Source of the DNA: an uncultured Parasphingopyxis sp.
GTDB lineage: Bacteria; Pseudomonadota; Alphaproteobacteria; Sphingomonadales; Sphingomonadaceae
Length of the DNA: 64,000 nt
Direction of reading: 5' to 3'
NCBI RefSeq assembly: GCF_937129435.1
Contig: NZ_CAKZNF010000024.1
Coordinates: 45,178-109,177 of the forward strand
The notes beneath the pieces were generated by a model. That model saw only the letters and a list, made by a program, of their open reading frames with translations, did not search any database and was not told where the DNA came from. A program made the position numbers and the translations under genes. Of the stretch, positions 31,123 through 41,969 are shown piece by piece (the first letter of the stretch is position 1; each line of letters starts with the position of its first letter).

Positions 31123-31467
31123 TCAGCCGCCGTTCCGCACCTCAAGCGATTGCGCCAGCCGCCGCTCGGCCAAATCCCGCGCCGTGCCGCGTTTCAACCC
31201 GAGCGAACCCGCCAGCTGCCGCCCCATCAGCGCGTCGCCCAGCGCCAGCAGGACGAGTTCGAACGTGTTCTCATGGATCGCGGCATCGGCATGGCCTTCC
31301 TCGCCCAGATCGTCGACCAGCTCGTGGATCGTCTCGACGATCGGGTCGAGCGCGTCCTCGTTTCCCGACACGAGCATCCAGCTGGCGAGCGCGCCGGCGC
31401 CCTCCTTGTTGAACGCGTCGAAGGTCAGGTCGACGATGTCGCGCGGGCGGCCTTTGCCGTCGCACAG
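31123..31467 (-). pseudogene. Truncated copy (C-terminal about 110 aa) of the TetR gene at 50477-51064
   Basis: RDIVDLTFDAFNKEGAGALASWMLVSGNEDALDPIVETIHELVDDLGEEGHADAAIHENTFELVLLALGDALMGRQLAGSLGLKRGTARDLAERRLAQSLEVRNGG nearly identical to the intact copy. Confidence 0.9.
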
Positions 31468-31840
31468 GGCATGGAGCTTGGAGTTCAGCCCGCCCCTGGT
31501 GCGCCCGATACGTCGAGGAAGACCACCCTTTTAGAAGGCTCGCCGCCGTGCGGTGTGCCTTGGGTGGCATCGATCATGATCGCATCGGGCTCCCCTGCCT
31601 CGCCCGCCAGTTCGGCGAAGATGCGGTTGAACACGCCCATTTTGCTCCAACAGATGAGCCGGTCGTAGATGGTCTTGTGCGGCCCGTAACCCTTGGTGCA
31701 TCGCGCCACATCAGGCCGTGCTTGTGACGTAGACCATCTCCGATACGATCCGCCGGTCGTCGACCCTCGGGATGCCATGCGACAACGGGAACAACGGCTC
31801 GATCCGGCGCATCTGCGCACGGCTCAGCATAAACGGAACA
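31468..31840 (-). pseudogene. IS5-family transposase remnant, frameshifted and 3'-truncated
   Basis: AQMRRIEPLFPLSHGIPRVDDRRIVSEMVYV / YGPHKTIYDRLICWSKMGVFNRIFAELAGEAGEPDAIMIDAT / KAHRTAASLL / GGLNSKLHALCDGKGRP in shifted frames. Confidence 0.85.
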
Positions 31841-32226
31841 TGCATCGGTAGCGCTTCTTCGACACCGTCCTTGGATCAACCTATCCTCTATCATGCAAGC
31901 TAATTAATAGGTCCTGAGCCTAGGACTTTTGCCGAATTTCGGAAAGGCTGGCGGAGAGGGTGTCCGCCATACTGGCGGCTCAAAGCTGGGATAGCGGGCG
32001 CGAACATACGTCGACCCCTGATCTAACCCCCCGAAAAACAATTGGGTACGAACTCAGCGAACCACTCTTGCCAACATTGAGGCCGACGCTCATACGAGCA
32101 GAGTTGTGCAGTCGGAAGCGTTAGGAGGCAACCGCAGGGACTGCTTAAAAAACTGAAATGTCTCCGATGCTGGCCTTATGCGTGGTTTTCGGCTCATCAA
32201 GAGGTCCGCGCACGATAGAGGAGGAT

Positions 32227-32355
32227 ATGCTTATGCATTTCACCTTTTCCATCGAAGCCGGCCAGTCCAGCGGCACATCGTTCCGCTTGGCCTTGGGAAT
32301 TTCGGTTCCCGTTGGTCTGGTATGGGCGGTGTGCAGTTTTTTTGGACTGTCCTGA
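32227..32355 (+). CDS. 42-aa predicted single-TM peptide
   Basis: GAGGAGG just upstream of ATG; MLMHFTFSIEAGQSSGTSFRLALGISVPVGLVWAVCSFFGLS; followed by a terminator. Confidence 0.5.
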   Translation: MLMHFTFSIEAGQSSGTSFRLALGISVPVGLVWAVCSFFGLS

Positions 32356-32360
32356 TGATT

Positions 32361-32391
32361 GGGGCGTCTCGGCAACGAGACGTCCCTTTTT
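32361..32391 (+). terminator. Rho-independent terminator
   Basis: GGGGCGTCTCG-GCAA-CGAGACGTCCC-TTTTT. Confidence 0.85.
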
Positions 32392-32680
32392 ATGTGGCCT
32401 GTCGTTGCGATCCTAACAATTTTTCGTAGCCCTTCTGATCTAGGGTGCAATCGACAAGCTCCAAAAATTTCTTTTTTGGAAGCTTGATCTGCCGAGCCAT
32501 TACGGTGAGCAAAGAATCATCGATATCCTTGTGCTGCGTGCCATGACTGAGCTTCGTCCTCTTAGTCGTTTTTCGCCCGCTAAGATCATGGTATATATAG
32601 TAGGAATGATCGTTCTCGCTCTTTTTGAATCCCTTTTTTTGTAGCGCCTTATCAATGTCTCTTCTCTTACGCTGCGCCAT
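32390..32680 (-). CDS. HicA-like mRNA interferase-type toxin candidate
   Basis: MAQRKRRDIDKALQKKGFKKSENDHSYYIYHDLSGRKTTKRTKLSHGTQHKDIDDSLLTVMARQIKL. Confidence 0.55.
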   Translation of the reverse strand: MAQRKRRDIDKALQKKGFKKSENDHSYYIYHDLSGRKTTKRTKLSHGTQHKDIDDSLLTVMARQIKLPKKKFLELVDCTLDQKGYEKLLGSQRQAT

Positions 32681-33728
32681 TTCCCCTCCCTAGGCGATTT
32701 AGCAATTTCTTCTTAAGACCGATGGCGTCCTTATCGAGCGCTTCATCTTCCGCCATGGCGTATTCAAGCCACAAGATTTTAAGGTCCGACAATATCTCGT
32801 CGCGAATTTTTTCGTATGAGCTTGATATCACATCAATACCAAGCTCTTCGTCCGAGTATACAAATATTCTATTTTGCCAATCAAACTCTACCGGAATTGA
32901 AAGAGGTTTATTAAAAAATATCTCCTCTTTATCAATATAAAACGATTTTATAGCGGGCAATGAAGGCTCAATTTCGCCGAGCAATTTAATATCAGAGAAT
33001 GAAGTGATATCACCCTTTTGGTCATAATTCGGATCGCCTACGACGCGCACACGCTTACGCACATTCGCCTGCAACCACGCCTCAATCTTCATGGGGTAAT
33101 CGAAGCGGACGGCGCGGTTTGCTCCCGGCTTAACGGTAATAATCGTCCGCTGATAATCGATAGTGTGGAGCTTTCCGACCAGTTCGTGCTCTTCGCTCTC
33201 CGGAAATTTCCCCTCGCGCAATCGCTCAATGATAACGCGCGCTCTGTCAGCCCTGAAACTAAATGGGCCGCGTTTGCCCGGCCTAATTGAGATCGTAAGC
33301 TCTTCATCATCAGGGGGAAGCAGCCCCTTGGCGGCATCGGCCATGAACCAACGCTCCCGCGCGTTGGGCAACATAGCGATCACACGTTCTTCTTCACCGC
33401 TGTCGAACGCTTTCAGCGTCTTCAGCAGCTCCTCACGCGCAACCAGTGTCTGGGTCGAAATATCACCTGTGTGCGAACACACACTTACGGGTTGAACATG
33501 GCTCCCTTTTTCCGGCTCTCGGCAGACAACGGAGTATTCGCGCCGAACTTTCGCGGTCGGTCGTATACGCTGACCCAGTGCTCGGCCCTCTTTGCGCATT
33601 CCAATGATATGAACCATGCGTTGAAGGGCCCAAAGCGAGCTAATTACGGCTTCCGCTGGCGCGCCATCAAGGTTCCGGACTAGCTTTCCGGAAAACTTTA
33701 CCTGAATGTCGTTTGGATATTCTTCCAC
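32667..33728 (-). CDS. Uncharacterised 353-aa protein overlapping the HicA-like gene
   Basis: Intact ORF, 14-bp overlap with downstream gene; AT-rich 3' half; no family recognised. Confidence 0.75.
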   Translation of the reverse strand: MEEYPNDIQVKFSGKLVRNLDGAPAEAVISSLWALQRMVHIIGMRKEGRALGQRIRPTAKVRREYSVVCREPEKGSHVQPVSVCSHTGDISTQTLVAREELLKTLKAFDSGEEERVIAMLPNARERWFMADAAKGLLPPDDEELTISIRPGKRGPFSFRADRARVIIERLREGKFPESEEHELVGKLHTIDYQRTIITVKPGANRAVRFDYPMKIEAWLQANVRKRVRVVGDPNYDQKGDITSFSDIKLLGEIEPSLPAIKSFYIDKEEIFFNKPLSIPVEFDWQNRIFVYSDEELGIDVISSSYEKIRDEILSDLKILWLEYAMAEDEALDKDAIGLKKKLLNRLGRGNGAA

Positions 33729-33813
33729 GATTTGCCCGGTGCCTAGCCCCTCGAAAAGCGGCTATCGCAAGAAAGTATTAAAATGTCTATTGACGCGCCA
33801 TGCGACGCGTCAC

Positions 33814-34242
33814 CTAGCCCTGCGGCGCGACGCGCGGCGATCCCTTCACTGCCACGGCCGCAATCGGCGTCCCCGTTCCGTGGGCGCCGGAGAAATCGGC
33901 GAGCAGCTGTAGGTAGCGGAGATTGCCCTTGTAGCCGAAGCGATAGCTCGCCGGATCGGCGTGTTCTTCGTTCAGCGTCATGATGATGCCGTCCGCGATG
34001 CCCTCCATGCCGATCATGTCGGCGTCGGTGACGGCCTCATAGGCCTGCCCGTCTTCGGAGTGCGTCAGAACGAACTCAATCTTGTTCGCGCCGTCGAAGA
34101 CAATGCCGCCTTCGCCGATGGCGAGGATGATTTCCGCCGCCTTGAAGCCCGATAGGTCCACGGCGACCGGCACGTTGTCCGCATCCAGCGTGGCGTTGCC
34201 GATGAGCGTTTCGACGGCGATGTTCGAGTGCAAATCCTTCAT
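33814..34242 (-). CDS. Phage head-associated protein (decoration-like), uncertain
   Basis: Immediately downstream of the capsid gene on the same strand; IVFDGANKIEFVLTHSEDGQAYEAV. Confidence 0.5.
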   Translation of the reverse strand: MKDLHSNIAVETLIGNATLDADNVPVAVDLSGFKAAEIILAIGEGGIVFDGANKIEFVLTHSEDGQAYEAVTDADMIGMEGIADGIIMTLNEEHADPASYRFGYKGNLRYLQLLADFSGAHGTGTPIAAVAVKGSPRVAPQG

Positions 34243-34266
34243 GGGGATATCCTTTCGGTGTCGCCG

Positions 34267-35472
34267 TTACGCGGCGGAGAATTTCAGGAACTTGATGGCG
34301 TTCGTGTCCAGTGGAGCGCCGCCCGTGCGCTTCGAGAAATAGAACTTGGTCCAGCCCTTCTTCGTGACGTTGTCGCGAATGAGGGACATGCCGGGCCGGT
34401 CCACGATGGCGTAGCCGCGCTTCCAGTTGCCGAAGGCGATGGCGAGAGCGCCCGCCTCGATATCGGGCATGCTCTCGTCGATCCCGACCGGATAGCCGAG
34501 CAGCCGCGCAGGTTCGCGGGCGTCGAGAGCCTCTCTCCACAGCAGCCTTCCGTCACCATCTCTAAACTTCATTACGATGCTCGCGGTCAGTGAGTTCATA
34601 AGCCAGCCTACACCTTGACCCGATCGGTAGGGCGCGGGCAGCGAGAAGATGAGGTCGATCAGGTTGTTCTGGAAACCGCCGTCGCCATCGGCGAGGAAAT
34701 CGCCGTCCACGCCCGAAACGACATGCTGATAGGTGCCGAAGGCGCGAACCGCATCCGCCTCGTCAGTGGTGGCGCGATGCACCAGGCCGAGCGGCTTCTT
34801 CACGCCGTCGCCGCCGATGAACGCTTCGTTCTCGGCCAACACGAACTCCGCCGCCACATCTTCGTCGAGAAAGGCTTTGAGGTCGAAGCTGCTGTCGTCG
34901 AGAATAAAATTCGTGATTTCTGGGATGGCATATACTTCGCTGGGCGTAATTTCGACTGCTCCCAGAACGGGCGTGTCGGTGTCTTCGCGGGTCTCCAATT
35001 CGTGAGCCCATCGGGACGATCCGCCCGTGCGCTTGACGATTTTACGCCAGCTTCCCGATCCTTTGCCGAGCGTGACCACGGTGGCCATGCTGCGTAGAGG
35101 AGAGCGGTCTCGCAGAAGCGACATGATCGCTCCGTCCACCTGCGTCGGGACGGTGAAGCCGCCATCGGGATCGGAGCCGATCTCCATCGCCGCCTGCGGC
35201 GCGCCACGGAGCGCCGAAACGAACTGGGAGCGGACCTCGCCGGTGAGGGGATCGAAACCGGACGGGCCGTTGCTTTGGTTTGCGAGCCGATCAGAAAAAT
35301 TGTTGAGCGCCGTTTCGGCGTTGTCCATCGCCGTTTCGATTTCCGTGATCCGGCGCGCGTGATCGGTGCGAATTTCTTCGACCGCGGCGTTGATGCGCTG
35401 GACGAGAGCCTTGGGATCGACCTCGGCGTGGACGGTGCCGATCAGGGCGCGGGGGACATTGGGGTGAAGCAC
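34267..35472 (-). CDS. HK97-type phage major capsid protein
   Basis: N-terminal coiled coil; GGFTVPTQVDGAIMSLLRDRSPLRSMATVVTL; WLMNSLTASIVMKFRDGDGRLLW; FGNWKRGYAIVDRPGMSLIRD. Confidence 0.92.
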   Translation of the reverse strand: MLHPNVPRALIGTVHAEVDPKALVQRINAAVEEIRTDHARRITEIETAMDNAETALNNFSDRLANQSNGPSGFDPLTGEVRSQFVSALRGAPQAAMEIGSDPDGGFTVPTQVDGAIMSLLRDRSPLRSMATVVTLGKGSGSWRKIVKRTGGSSRWAHELETREDTDTPVLGAVEITPSEVYAIPEITNFILDDSSFDLKAFLDEDVAAEFVLAENEAFIGGDGVKKPLGLVHRATTDEADAVRAFGTYQHVVSGVDGDFLADGDGGFQNNLIDLIFSLPAPYRSGQGVGWLMNSLTASIVMKFRDGDGRLLWREALDAREPARLLGYPVGIDESMPDIEAGALAIAFGNWKRGYAIVDRPGMSLIRDNVTKKGWTKFYFSKRTGGAPLDTNAIKFLKFSAA

Positions 35473-35566
35473 GGATCAACTCCTCGGATTGGTTTCGAGG
35501 AGGGTCGTCCATCGCTTTTGGCGAAAATTGCATTTCTGCCAGCGATAGTAATAAAAACCGATAACC

Positions 35567-36151
35567 ATGTTCGACGGTGAAAATTCTGGTCAATACCCGC
35601 GAAGGGTCAAATCTCTGAGAGGGAAGGCTCGTTGGTTGGCGAGCGATGGGCATAGCTACAAATCAAAGACTGATGCCAAACGCGCTTCCAAAGGCACTCT
35701 AAAGAGAAGCTATGAGCAGTGGAATTCACGCCCAGAGGACAAAATTGCGCGTCCCGGTATGCTATCAATCGCATTGTCGTGTTTGGGGTCTGCGCTGTTG
35801 GCATTTGCAATCTATGCAATCGCCAACGGCACAATCTCGTCCAATTCGTGGATTCAATTGATCGGGATAATCACGTTTTCGATCTTGCTTCTCTATTGCA
35901 TCGCTATATTCGTTGTCTCAGTCCAAGCGATCTCGGCAGGCAAGGCTAGCGAGACCGATCTAGATCAAGAGTCAGAAAGCTTGGCTTGGGCTATCGGTTG
36001 CTTCAGTGTGATCGCTGTCATCGGTGTTGCTGGCCTCGCCAAGTTACCAGACCTATTTGAAGGCGTTTCCAGAGGCCAAACAATCATAGCGGTGCTTCTA
36101 TTCGCCATCCTCATGGCGCTCATCGCGTTGCTCGGAAAACACCGAACCTAG
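35567..36151 (+). CDS. Four-TM hypothetical protein encoded opposite to the satellite genes
   Basis: Intact 194-aa ORF with hydrophobic pairs SIALSCLGSALLAFAIYAIA / WIQLIGIITFSILLLYCIAIFVV / AIGCFSVIAVIGVAGLA / IIAVLLFAILMALIALL. Confidence 0.65.
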   Translation: MFDGENSGQYPRRVKSLRGKARWLASDGHSYKSKTDAKRASKGTLKRSYEQWNSRPEDKIARPGMLSIALSCLGSALLAFAIYAIANGTISSNSWIQLIGIITFSILLLYCIAIFVVSVQAISAGKASETDLDQESESLAWAIGCFSVIAVIGVAGLAKLPDLFEGVSRGQTIIAVLLFAILMALIALLGKHRT

Positions 36152-36591
36152 GCCCGTAACTGTCGAATGTAGCGCTGCGATAGTCGCCGCTCTATTCGGT
36201 CAAGGATCGCTGCCAGTTCCACGCATTGGCCTTCCGGGGAGAGATACTGGCCAGAACGGGCTTCGAGGCGTTCGCGGCGCATCTTCATATAGTCGCCGTG
36301 GACATCGATCTCAGGACACGTCGCGAGCGTCACGAAGGGAGACGGAGCCACGTTGCGCTCAAGCTCCGTGAGCGCAGCGCTCAGGCGGTCGTCGGGATCG
36401 CTCGCCAAGTCGCGGCGCAATTCTTCGACTACGCGGCGGGCAATCTCTGTGCCGAGCGCGTGTGCCTTTGATTTGTCGGTTTCCATTTCGACGATCACCG
36501 CCGCCTCGCGAAGTGCGACTAGCTCCGCAGCGGGGCGTGCGGGCCGGGCCATCGCCATCACGGGGCTACGAAGGGCGCGAGGCGGGGTCAT
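36148..36591 (-). CDS. Hypothetical element-1 protein
   Basis: Intact ORF in satellite gene run. Confidence 0.5.
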   Translation of the reverse strand: MTPPRALRSPVMAMARPARPAAELVALREAAVIVEMETDKSKAHALGTEIARRVVEELRRDLASDPDDRLSAALTELERNVAPSPFVTLATCPEIDVHGDYMKMRRERLEARSGQYLSPEGQCVELAAILDRIERRLSQRYIRQLRA

Positions 36592-36794
36592 TGATCCGGC
36601 ACCAAGGCAATCACATTGAAGCCTTTCAGGCTCTTGGTCATCTCGCGGGCCTTGGTCCGGGTGAACCCAGCGTCCATGAATGCGCGGTCCAGATCGCGAG
36701 GGCTCATGGGGCGGCTCACCTCGTCCAAAAGCTCAATTGCCAAGGCCCGGCTGTCACTTGGTGCGTTCACGAGTCTTTGAATTCCAGATTGCAT
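36588..36794 (-). CDS. Hypothetical small protein
   Basis: Intact ORF, 4-bp overlap with the next gene. Confidence 0.5.
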   Translation of the reverse strand: MQSGIQRLVNAPSDSRALAIELLDEVSRPMSPRDLDRAFMDAGFTRTKAREMTKSLKGFNVIALVPDQ

Positions 36795-36861
36795 GGTGAT
36801 GTCCTTACGCGCGCGGGCGCGCGAGTTGGTTTGCCGTTAATGGTGTTTGCATTTTTCATCC

Positions 36862-37191
36862 TCACCGCCGTCCGGTCGGGGAAGCCGGAAGCGTAAACTT
36901 TCGAGGCCCCCGGTCGTCAGGCTCCAGCCCGCATCCTTCCGGCACGGCCCAAGTGAAGCTCCGCATCACTGGATCCCAGCGCAGAGCCGGATCGCGTTTA
37001 AGTGAGCGGATCGTGCGCGAGGGGAGATGAGCGACTGCCCCGCGAAGCGCCCGGTGGCGTTGAGCGTTCTTTCGCCCGGCTCCCACAAGCCGCTTGTAGT
37101 CTACGCGAGGAGGATGGGTGCGCGGACAAAAGCCCTCGTGGATTGGGACGCCGTGCTTGGCGGCCCATGCGCGAAACTCACTGTATGTCAT
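36862..37191 (-). CDS. Hypothetical protein
   Basis: Intact ORF in satellite gene run. Confidence 0.45.
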   Translation of the reverse strand: MTYSEFRAWAAKHGVPIHEGFCPRTHPPRVDYKRLVGAGRKNAQRHRALRGAVAHLPSRTIRSLKRDPALRWDPVMRSFTWAVPEGCGLEPDDRGPRKFTLPASPTGRR

Positions 37192-37206
37192 CGGTGCCTC
37201 CTATCG

Positions 37207-37460
37207 AAGCGCGAACCTCCCTCGCTCCGGGGAGGGGGTTCGGAAGAAAGTGTGGTGTCTCGGTGACTTAGCTGGTGCCGAACCCCCCGAACCTCCCGAA
37301 CCGGGTTAACCCGAGAGAGGAGCTCGCCGCCTCTCCTGCTTCTCTCGCTATCGGCTTCTTTTAGAGAAAGAGGGGGTTCGGGGGGTTCGGAAGGCGAAAG
37401 ATCCAGCTTTTCCGGGCAAAAGCGCGAACCCCCTTGGCGGGGTTCGGAGGGGGTTCGACG
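37207..37460. repeat. Iteron-like array of GGTTCGG heptamers in both orientations (candidate replication origin)
   Basis: GGTTCGG at about 37237, 37375, 37384, 37441 (GGTTCGA at 37452); CCGAACC at 37278, 37287, 37296 (9-bp period). Confidence 0.6.
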
Positions 37461-37474
37461 GGGGCGCGGAAGGA

Positions 37475-39505
37475 TCACATCGGCCTCCCATTGTCGCCTT
37501 GATCTGTTTGGCCCAGCACAACACGACGCGGCACTTCCTCGAAGGCCGATACCGACGCTCCCTCATCGCCCTTGACCCATGCGTGCTGCGGCGGTCCACC
37601 GAAGCGGAGTTTTGATTTCGGTCGTCGCCAGCCGATCTTTTGCATCGCTGAGCTGAGACGGACATTATGATCCTGGGTCCGCTTGCCGGCGTCCCCAAGG
37701 CCGACAGCCTCCCATATATCGCTCGCACGTATCTTACCCTCTAGGCCGTCGAGCCGCTCGCTAAGAAGCTCGTGCCACGGCTCTCGCACCTCACGCTGGC
37801 TTTGCTGAAGGCCAGCCGCTGACCATAAATTTTCAGGCAATCGGATCGGCTCACCATCAGCCTCGCGCATCGCCGCCTCGGCCCACAGTTGGTCGCGATC
37901 AGCCCGCAGCCTCTTGATGTCGAATTGAGAAACCTTCACCGGCCAAAAGCGGCGATTGCCGGTCATGTCGCGCAGATATTCATGATCGTTGGTCGTGCCG
38001 ATGAAGATCGATTGTCTCGGCTGTTCGGTCGTCATGCGGCCATAAGCCAAGCGAGCCTTATCGATGCGTCGGCTCAGCATGGATTTGACGTGCTCGATTT
38101 CGCCCCGCTTCATGCCTTTCAATTCTGCTAACTCAGCAAGCCAGCACCCGGCGATGCGTTCCATGAGCACCTTACTATCGGCGTCCAACGGCACGTCATC
38201 CGTGAACCAATCGTCCCGCACCGCCAGAACTCCGAGCGCGGTGCTTTTGTTCGTTCCTTGCGAGCTTTCGAGGACAAGCATCTCGTCATACTTGCATCCC
38301 GGCTTCCGCACCCGGCGCACCGCCGCGATCAGACAGATCGCGCCGACACTTCGCACATACTCGCTGTCTTCCGCGCCGCCATATTCGTGCAGCCAGCGGT
38401 CCAGTCGCTCGATGCCGTCCCATGTCAGCCCGTCCAGATACTCGCAGACCGGGTGACAAGAATTATCCCGTGCATGGTCGAGAACAATGTCGCAAAAGCG
38501 TTCCTTTGCGAACGCCAACAGAAACCGTTCCTCAATTGAGAGCCGCAGCCTCGTAAGCGCGGCGTCGTCGAGCGCCGGGCCGAAGCCCTCAAGCCCCGAC
38601 AAGAGATACCGATTGGCAAAAGTGTCATAGCTCACCGACACGCCGAGCATTTGCAAAGCACGACGCGCATTAGGTGGCGATCGATAGGGAATGTCGTTTT
38701 GATCGCGGTTGAAATCGTCGGCTTCCGATATCCAAGTGCCGCCGGTGACCGGCGGCGACTCCTCCACGATGGCCAAAAGGTCACCTTTGGTATTTCCTGC
38801 TTCGAGCCAATCGGTCACGTCGCCGTGTTCCGGGAGGCCGGGCAGCTCGATCACCTTTATCGAGCGCGCGACTGGGGCGAGGGCAGCGTAGATCGTGCGC
38901 GCCCGCTGCCGACCGCGATCATCGTTATCGACCATGATGACGACATCGCGGTCCGCGAAATATGAATTGAATTCGTCTTTCCAGTTGAGCGCACCGTTGG
39001 GATTGGTTGTCGCGTTCAGGCCTAGCGCGATCAGCGTGTCGGCATCTTTCTCACCCTCGACGATGAACACCGACCCATCGTCCGCAGCCGTCGCGGCGGT
39101 GAGCTTGTCGAGCGCGTAAAGCAGGTCGGGCGCGTCGCCCTTTCCCTTCAAAATGAGTGTCAGGCCGGGATAATTGTAGAAGGCACGTGGATCTTCGGCC
39201 TTCGCAATTTGAAGGTCGTTCGAGTTGTCGATCCGCCGCCCGATTACGAAGACCTTTTCACCATCAGGGCGTTGCCCCTTGAACACGAAGTAGGCATCGC
39301 GGCCATTGGCGTCGCAGTAGCGAAATTTGGCCTCTATGGTCGTGGCGCTATCCCACAAGGGCCTATCTGGATCGTCGTGCGAATAGGAGCCGGAAGGGGC
39401 TTTATTCTGAATTGTCGTTGGCGGAGAAGGATCGCGAGGGTTTTCATCGTCCCCTTCGGCGGCCCCGGATTCATCGTCCGGGGCCGTTTCCGTATCTCTA
39501 GACAT
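37475..39505 (-). CDS. TOPRIM primase / VapE-like helicase replication protein
   Basis: TOPRIM-like FIVEGEKDADTLIALGL...VVIMVDNDDRGRQRA; VapE region LDGLTWDGIERLDRWLHEYGG, LVLESSQGTNKSTALGVLA, IFIGTTNDHEYLRDMTGNRRFWPVKV. Confidence 0.9.
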   Translation of the reverse strand: MSRDTETAPDDESGAAEGDDENPRDPSPPTTIQNKAPSGSYSHDDPDRPLWDSATTIEAKFRYCDANGRDAYFVFKGQRPDGEKVFVIGRRIDNSNDLQIAKAEDPRAFYNYPGLTLILKGKGDAPDLLYALDKLTAATAADDGSVFIVEGEKDADTLIALGLNATTNPNGALNWKDEFNSYFADRDVVIMVDNDDRGRQRARTIYAALAPVARSIKVIELPGLPEHGDVTDWLEAGNTKGDLLAIVEESPPVTGGTWISEADDFNRDQNDIPYRSPPNARRALQMLGVSVSYDTFANRYLLSGLEGFGPALDDAALTRLRLSIEERFLLAFAKERFCDIVLDHARDNSCHPVCEYLDGLTWDGIERLDRWLHEYGGAEDSEYVRSVGAICLIAAVRRVRKPGCKYDEMLVLESSQGTNKSTALGVLAVRDDWFTDDVPLDADSKVLMERIAGCWLAELAELKGMKRGEIEHVKSMLSRRIDKARLAYGRMTTEQPRQSIFIGTTNDHEYLRDMTGNRRFWPVKVSQFDIKRLRADRDQLWAEAAMREADGEPIRLPENLWSAAGLQQSQREVREPWHELLSERLDGLEGKIRASDIWEAVGLGDAGKRTQDHNVRLSSAMQKIGWRRPKSKLRFGGPPQHAWVKGDEGASVSAFEEVPRRVVLGQTDQGDNGRPM

Positions 39506-39968
39506 TGGCGACCGCCCGGCGCTGGCCCGCCTTTTCGAGGGCGGTATCTACGCGAGCGGCGAGGTTGCGAACGTCGATCATCATCGTAAACGACACGAGG
39601 CCGCCATTGATGAATCCGCTATCGAAATTGAGGCCGTCGGTCGGCTGGATTGAAATCGCGCCGCTCTGAATTACGGTCATGGTGAGTTGGGGCGCGTCGG
39701 GATATTCGCGGACGGCGATCATGAACCGTTCGGCGATCCGAAGCGCGAGCGGCGATTTCATCCCGAAGTGCATCAGGTCATCGACCAGCATCATCATTCC
39801 CGCCTGCCTCGGCGAGAGGCAGCGGGCCTTTCCGAGTTGGGCCTTGTCGCCGCACACGGGACTGCCGGGGTTTTGCTCGAAGATGCCCTGTTTCTGGGGC
39901 CTCGTCATACGCAGCGCGTCGTCCATGACGCGCGGCAGGACTTCCGGGTGGGATTCAAAAATGGACAT
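39498..39968 (-). CDS. Hypothetical satellite protein
   Basis: Intact ORF overlapping the primase start. Confidence 0.5.
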   Translation of the reverse strand: MSIFESHPEVLPRVMDDALRMTRPQKQGIFEQNPGSPVCGDKAQLGKARCLSPRQAGMMMLVDDLMHFGMKSPLALRIAERFMIAVREYPDAPQLTMTVIQSGAISIQPTDGLNFDSGFINGGLVSFTMMIDVRNLAARVDTALEKAGQRRAVANV

Positions 39969-40079
39969 AAGACTTCTCCTTCCGAAGGCGGCTCTCGGCT
40001 GCGGCTATTTCAAAGCCGACAAGAAAAGCCGGTCGGTTTTTCAGATTGGGAGAGACGCTACGAGCGGATCGCCGACGCC

Positions 40080-40334
40080 TCACAGGGCGCAGGGGCGCTC
40101 CGGGCGTTCACGTTCAATGCGTTCGGCGGCTCTCTGGTCAAGCCAAGCGTGCACTTCCGCAGCCAGCCATCCCTTGGATCGGGAGGACAACTTGATGGGG
40201 TGCGGTAGACCTTCAGCTTCCATGAGGCGTTCTATTGCGTTGCGCGAAAGCCCCAAGAGTTGCTGTAATTCCTTTTGCCGGTAGATCAGCCGCGACGGGG
40301 GCGGCTCCATTTCGGCGGTGTCGAGATCGGACAT
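40080..40334 (-). CDS. AlpA-family transcriptional regulator
   Basis: LIYRQKELQQLLGLSRNAIERLMEAEGLPHPIKLSSRSKGWLAAEVHAWLDQRA. Confidence 0.9.
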   Translation of the reverse strand: MSDLDTAEMEPPPSRLIYRQKELQQLLGLSRNAIERLMEAEGLPHPIKLSSRSKGWLAAEVHAWLDQRAAERIERERPERPCAL

Positions 40335-40488
40335 GGCTGCATTCCTTCATTAAGGGGTGCCGAGGCACCAGGAAGGCGCTCGAAAGCGCGCAGCCCTTCA
40401 AGAATACCGAGCCTATTACAGTGTAAAGTGTTTTCTTTTCTGCATAATATCAGTGAGTTAGTGAAGAAGATTGCGAACTCGCTCCGAA

Positions 40489-41721
40489 TCACCCCGCAGT
40501 TCGGATCGGTTCGACGTTTTCGGCACGCGGCTCGATCACCTCGCAATAAGCCGCCCAGTCATCCATCAGCCGCCGCCGCTTCTCGAAAAGATCACCCCGG
40601 CGATAAGCCGCTTCGACAGCGTCGCTGATCGCATGGGCCAGCGCCATCTCGGCCACTGAATCGGGATAGCTGGTCCGCTCCGCCGCCCAATCGCGGAATG
40701 TCGAACGGAAACCGTGAGCGGTGATATCGGTCCGGTCCATCCTGCGAAGCACGGCCAAGAACGACATATTGCTGAGCGGCTTTCCCTTCGACTTGGGACT
40801 GATGAAGACGAAATCATTGCCGTCTTCGCGCGGAAGCTCCGACAGGATTTGGACGGCTCGCGCCGAAAGTGGGATGCGGTGTTCACGCCGTGCCTTCATC
40901 CGCTCTGCCGGAATCGTCCAAGTCCGCTGTTGCAGATCGATCTCACTCCAAGTCGCGCCGATAGTCTCACTAGTGCGGGCGGCGGTCAGAATAGTGAACT
41001 CGAATGCGCGGGCAGCCACACCCTCTCGCGCCCGTAGATCGTGCAGGAACATAGCTACATCGTCGAAAGGTAGGGCGGCGTGGTTCTTTACTCGCTTCAC
41101 CTTCGAGAGGGGCGCTAGCAGATGGTCGAGATTGCCCTTCAGTCGCGCCGGGTTTTCACCGGTGCGCAGCTTTCGAGCCTTTGCCCGATCCAGCACTTTT
41201 TCGATCCGCGACCGAACGCGCCCGGCTGTTTCAGACTTCGTGGTCCAGATCGGCTCTAGGACCGCATACACATCGTCGGTCGATATGTCGGCGACGCTCA
41301 TATCTCCGATTTTCGGAAATGCGTGCATCTCCAGCGAGGATCGCCACTGCTTCTCGCTCTTGTCGTTCGTCCAGCTGGGAGCGAGCGCCTTGATGCAATC
41401 TTCGGCCATCTCGCGAAACGTGGTTTGCTTCTTGCGACGCTTCGCTTGATTGCCTTTCCGCTCTTCGATTGGATCCACGCCCTCGCGCACGAGCTTGCGA
41501 AGAAGGACGGCTTGATCCCTCGCTTCGTCCAGCGTCACCAAGTCGAGCGGACCAATGCCCATCTCGCGCGGCTTCCCGTCGAACGAATATCGGAACTCCC
41601 ATCGCTTCGCCCCGGTCGGCGAAACGATCAGCCACAGGTTGCGGCCGTCGCCGTGTTTGCCCGGTTTGGCCTTGTCGATCCTCGTTTTAGTCAGCTTCAT
41701 TTGAACCGCCCTCCAGAGCAA
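40489..41721 (-). CDS. int: Tyrosine-type site-specific integrase (element 1)
   Basis: N-terminal DUF4102-type arm domain, TAARTSETIGATWSEID, HGFRSTFRDWA, C-terminal AYRRGDLFEKRRRLMDDWA. Confidence 0.95.
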   Translation of the reverse strand: MLWRAVQMKLTKTRIDKAKPGKHGDGRNLWLIVSPTGAKRWEFRYSFDGKPREMGIGPLDLVTLDEARDQAVLLRKLVREGVDPIEERKGNQAKRRKKQTTFREMAEDCIKALAPSWTNDKSEKQWRSSLEMHAFPKIGDMSVADISTDDVYAVLEPIWTTKSETAGRVRSRIEKVLDRAKARKLRTGENPARLKGNLDHLLAPLSKVKRVKNHAALPFDDVAMFLHDLRAREGVAARAFEFTILTAARTSETIGATWSEIDLQQRTWTIPAERMKARREHRIPLSARAVQILSELPREDGNDFVFISPKSKGKPLSNMSFLAVLRRMDRTDITAHGFRSTFRDWAAERTSYPDSVAEMALAHAISDAVEAAYRRGDLFEKRRRLMDDWAAYCEVIEPRAENVEPIRTAG

Positions 41722-41880
41722 GCCTGTGATCTACCGACCCCTGATATAACCCCTGATTTGTTCGGTAGTCTACAGGTAATTCGAGGGCGCTAGAGGCACA
41801 AGGCACACCGCAAATGGTTCAAAAAATCTCGGAAAACCGTGATCTAGAGGTCTGTTCGAGGATAGGAGCTATCGGGCAGG

Positions 41881-41969
<89 letters not shown>

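Follow-up and report, generated by a model that had tools for sequence, protein, structure and literature searches.

The described system closest to the pair of genes considered here is Class 8 hicBA, which was defined by Gerdes (2024, mBio, PMC10865869) as an arrangement in which hicB lies upstream of hicA and the two genes are close together or overlap. In that description, Class 8 HicB has about 331–356 residues and no recognised DNA-binding domain, and consists of an N-terminal domain of unknown kind, a middle domain resembling lysyl-tRNA synthetase (LysRS) and a C-terminal domain of HicB fold, and Class 8 HicA has about 95 residues with two extra C-terminal helices. The class has been described from computation only, and according to the same paper the regulation of its synthesis is an open question; our literature search, which covered few subscription papers, has found no experimental study of it.

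The window, i.e. the whole 64,000-nt stretch of DNA analysed, carries on its minus strand a 353-aa gene (hicB, 32667–33728, GTG start) followed by a 96-aa gene (hicA, 32390–32680, ATG start), and the GTG start is consistent with the N-termini of close relatives. The two genes overlap by 14 bp (32667–32680, minus strand), the hicA ATG lying inside the end of hicB, and a Shine-Dalgarno-like sequence, GGGAGGGG, can be read ahead of this ATG and within hicB (32682–32691, minus strand). These coordinates, the strand, both lengths and the overlap reproduce what the original prediction had given, and its remark that the pair is more AT-rich than the surroundings also holds, GC being 46–48% at 32001–33500 versus about 56–65% around it and about 60% elsewhere in the mobile element described below. 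The pair is very probably a Class 8 hicBA toxin–antitoxin module carried as cargo by a phage-satellite-like element integrated at a tRNA-Ser gene.

As in Class 8, hicB comes first and overlaps hicA, HicB has 353 residues, HicA has 96 residues with a predicted alpha-beta-beta-beta-alpha core followed by two C-terminal helices, and the middle domain of HicB is predicted to be an OB fold with LysRS among its structural matches (E > 0.01). For the HicB-fold C-terminus, the strands and long helix of the AlphaFold2 (AF2) model fit the description, whereas the comparison with canonical HicB profiles is not significant. Because the testable features of the published description are found here, the HicB fold of the C-terminus excepted, we have filed the pair as Class 8. 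It shares with canonical hicAB (Classes 3 and 4 of PMC10865869) the dsRBD fold of HicA, a candidate catalytic His and a small basic toxin adjoining the antitoxin, but differs from it in the reversed gene order, in the length of the antitoxin, which lacks a recognised helix-turn-helix (HTH) or ribbon-helix-helix (RHH) domain, and in the two additional helices of HicA. The large protein had been regarded as a non-canonical partner of no recognisable family; the former point stands, and the latter has been superseded, since the description of Class 8 HicB (PMC10865869) applies to the 353-aa protein and the arrangement, rare and non-canonical as it is, has thus already been described.

Assignment of the small protein to the HicA family is based on profile and fold. 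Pfam HicA_toxin (PF07927) is matched by 26 of 33 family members (best E 4e-6), and hhalign of the family against 17 canonical HicAs gives a probability of 92.5% (P 4.7e-7), all control comparisons remaining below 1%. The AF2 model, built from a 33-sequence alignment (pLDDT 84), shows the dsRBD-like HicA fold that the original prediction would lead one to expect, with helices at residues 6–15, 55–64, 69–76 and 82–94 and strands at 18–22, 26–31 and 37–44. Its best PDB match is 1whz, which we take to be a Thermus HicA structure (Foldseek probability 0.98, TM 0.70 by target); Foldseek E-values against PDB are above 0.001 for the models of both proteins. The HicA-like call had been made from a KLSHG motif, and here the identity is upheld but the diagnostic residue is another one: in the hhalign alignment the His of the canonical GSH motif corresponds to His25 of (G/N)DH (NDH in the window), which 40 of 41 sequences retain, the sole exception being the HicA beside a Sel1-repeat form, while the His of KLSHG is present in 33 of 41, several relatives having Met, Phe or Arg in its place. 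We therefore regard His25, and not the KLSHG His, as the candidate catalytic residue. The window HicA alone scores 14.2 bits with Pfam, below the gathering score of 27 bits, and this could be read as a sign that the pair is decayed or consists of chance reading frames without function. Such a reading is very improbable and is largely contradicted by conservation, both frames being intact, conserved and co-inherited; a chance pair is excluded because dozens of genomes conserve both frames at full length and with their order unchanged.

For HicB, AF2 modelling with 31 sequences (mean pLDDT 89) gives three predicted domains, whose relative placement is uncertain because pTM is 0.59. Residues 1–172 (33213–33728, minus strand) form an alpha/beta domain, and weak similarity to DUF7946 (PF25678), a family itself without known function, is detected in the N-terminal domains of 6 of 31 long HicBs (best E 0.0007) and not in the window HicB itself. 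The literature search found no paper mentioning DUF7946, and among 190 genomes of the class its one stand-alone gene adjoins a transposase, a context that gives no functional clue. Residues 181–252 (32973–33188, minus strand) form an OB fold of nucleic-acid-binding type, for which the top PDB matches by Foldseek are OB folds of RPA, IF1 and LysRS (1bbw and 8ylw for LysRS), and one relative (locus L046) matches Pfam tRNA_anti-codon in this part (E 0.011). Residues 256–348 (32685–32963, minus strand), the predicted antitoxin domain, show strands followed by helices including one long helix. Comparison of this domain with canonical HicB profiles (PF15919-type) yields a non-significant probability of 0.3%, so the identification as HicB is based on predicted topology, on the place of the gene and on what has been published about Class 8. 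The 353-aa protein has no meaningful match in Pfam, NCBIfam, PHROGs or PADLOC, and the sequence-profile search of PDB gave only matches at chance level. Among the viral fold matches of the HicB model, one of which is from Leptospira phage LE1, are phage proteins of comparable length that are uncharacterised.

The original prediction implied that the two genes should also be found together in other genomes. When one genome of each species was scanned with a profile, 39 hicA loci were obtained, 36 of them with upstream DNA. In all 36, which are distributed over several bacterial phyla, hicA is directly preceded by a HicB-like gene, and such a gene also stands directly before it in three viral contigs and one cyanobacterial plasmid. 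With locus L042 left out of the spacing figures, hicB and hicA mostly overlap by 1–26 bp and are otherwise at most 5 bp apart. The closest relatives have 57–61% identity to the window pair in the small protein and 50–52% in the large one. HicA and HicB distances are correlated (Mantel r 0.74, p 0.0005, 29 loci), a value that also reflects shared species history. The relatives were reached through the small protein and then the family alignment, and the 353-aa protein used alone found nothing in the genome collection, the viral collection, phages or plasmids; the alignment of long HicBs proved too diverse for scanning viral contigs. A match in genome G153 (L003), which lies in overlapping coding frames, was set aside as chance. 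Pairs of this type are rare on known mobile records: the small-protein search matched one plasmid of 72,556, from Geminocystis, and one virus (two records) of 50,697, the archaeal virus MFTV1, with genes of 356 or 333 aa immediately upstream. In this Methanocaldococcus fervens tailed virus 1 the Class 8-like hicBA (L008, 1977–3285) is annotated as hypothetical proteins.

The upstream HicBs are of two sizes, 30 of 36 being long (350–393 aa) and six short (132–197 aa), and viral contig L057 has a short form of 123 aa. A profile made from the C-terminal 100 residues of the long HicBs finds all short forms as well as a Sel1-repeat protein (L006), with E-values of 1e-13 to 1e-35, whereas a profile covering the N-terminal and OB regions recovers just L044, which may be a long form that has been broken, and L046, both by their OB region. 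We therefore regard the C-domain as the constant partner of HicA: the front end of HicB can be missing or replaced, for example by Sel1 repeats, and the C-domain alone is constant. In this respect the wider family, with its short HicBs and a Sel1-fused form sharing the same C-domain, goes beyond the Class 8 of the main text of PMC10865869. The conservation of the N-terminal and OB parts over 250 residues in long forms could suggest that the large protein is the active component, for example as an OB-fold nucleic-acid-binding effector, with the HicA-like protein as no more than a partner or regulator of it. We consider this improbable, as the short forms have only the C-terminal domain and yet retain HicA with His25, and no nuclease motif or family has been found in the large protein.

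Several individual loci may be mentioned here. At L006 (439–1970) the 416-aa Sel1-repeat protein ends in the HicB C-domain and precedes a divergent HicA-like protein in which His25 is absent. L009 (1791–3725; genome G437, assigned to Candidatus Symbiobacter because it matches L027) carries a tandem array of genes for short HicB (147–159 aa) and for HicA (95 aa); the HicA C-termini are identical, as if duplicated recently. The short HicB at L049 (3982–4410) has a weakly DUF2281-like N-terminus (E 0.016), hinting at front-end exchange.

A difference from the described Class 8 systems is the setting of the window copy, in a capsid-gene-carrying, tRNA-integrated satellite-like element. A tRNA-Ser gene is located at 41881–41969, and its 3' end (41881–41894) carries a 14-bp sequence, TGGCGGAGAGGGTG, whose exact direct repeat at 31949–31962 forms the distal att site, so that the two copies bracket an element of about 9.9 kb (31949–41894). 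In same-genus genomes the similarity to the window begins exactly at 41881, and this position is therefore taken as the integrase-side end; the left boundary is placed by the repeat only, because same-genus relatives are not syntenic on that side. The element encodes an integrase, AlpA, a VapE-like primase/helicase, an HK97 major capsid protein and a PHROG 5707 protein, and then hicBA; no terminase or portal was found among its scanned proteins. As had been stated from the sequence, the pair thus occupies the distal end of the satellite, opposite the integrase, the att repeats bracketing both. Transposase-like remnants with broken frames are seen by eye in ORF translations at 31123–31894, just beyond the distal repeat. 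Facing hicA on the plus strand is an ORF for a small hydrophobic protein of 65 aa (32158–32355), which has an alternative inner ATG start (about 42 aa) with a strong GAGGAGG Shine-Dalgarno sequence and is followed by a strong terminator-like hairpin (32361–32386); no relatives of it were found in the fetched loci beyond the window's own genome.

A toxin–antitoxin function of the pair is well supported by what is known of the family, and its predicted working would be as follows. HicB would be translated first, and the 14-bp overlap would couple the translation of HicA to it. HicA would be a small dsRBD-fold ribonuclease, with the conserved His25, that HicB would neutralise and that when free would cut RNA and halt protein synthesis. 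In HicB, the N-terminal and OB-fold domains would be exchangeable accessory parts, and since this front end is dispensable, a regulatory or sensing role is pointed to, most likely through the binding of nucleic acid in autoregulation or in sensing, so that HicA would be set free when an incoming phage removes or distracts HicB. No operator palindrome was found to be conserved upstream of hicB: the relatives share none, and a 7-bp inverted repeat in the window (TGACGCG...CGCGTCA) is no better than shuffles (p 0.165).

The interpretation as Class 8 cargo leaves the role of the module unspecified, and one version of it is anti-phage or anti-competitor defence, in which the N-terminal and OB domains would let HicB sense a phage, either an infecting one or a helper, and release HicA in abortive infection. 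This is a serious possibility, just short of what we would call probable. The location in a satellite adjoining capsid genes and the related pair in virus MFTV1 are consistent with it, such a role has been proposed for HicA modules (PMC10865869), and type I restriction-modification proteins make up 3–4 of 107 neighbour proteins of the relatives, a weak hint for which there is no control set; PADLOC models, however, match neither protein.

The module could instead have as its chief task the retention of the satellite in the chromosome, loss of the element leading to loss of the antitoxin and to harm by leftover HicA, without any need for action on phages. Stabilisation of plasmids and conjugative elements is a classical role of toxin–antitoxin modules, and the pair here lies inside an att-bounded element, with related pairs on a plasmid and beside conjugation-type genes (L019). 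Nevertheless, many related pairs are found among ordinary chromosomal genes, and a 250-aa extension of the antitoxin would be superfluous for addiction alone; we therefore see addiction as conceivable but rather unlikely to be the main role.

Returning to the Class 8 cargo interpretation, what is new here is the presence of Class 8 as cargo in a capsid-gene-carrying satellite and in an archaeal virus, and the modularity of HicB. More speculatively, and with little confidence, we suggest that Class 8 HicB may be a modular sensor-antitoxin, in which a constant HicA-neutralising C-domain is combined with interchangeable front ends (DUF7946-like/OB, Sel1 or short N-termini) that would provide distinct triggers for HicA; in the satellite, nucleic acid or protein of a phage or helper would be sensed and HicA fired. 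The satellite copy is compact and intact, making the role of the large HicB front end directly testable, and the C-domain shared across differing front ends offers a natural construct series for separating neutralisation from sensing.
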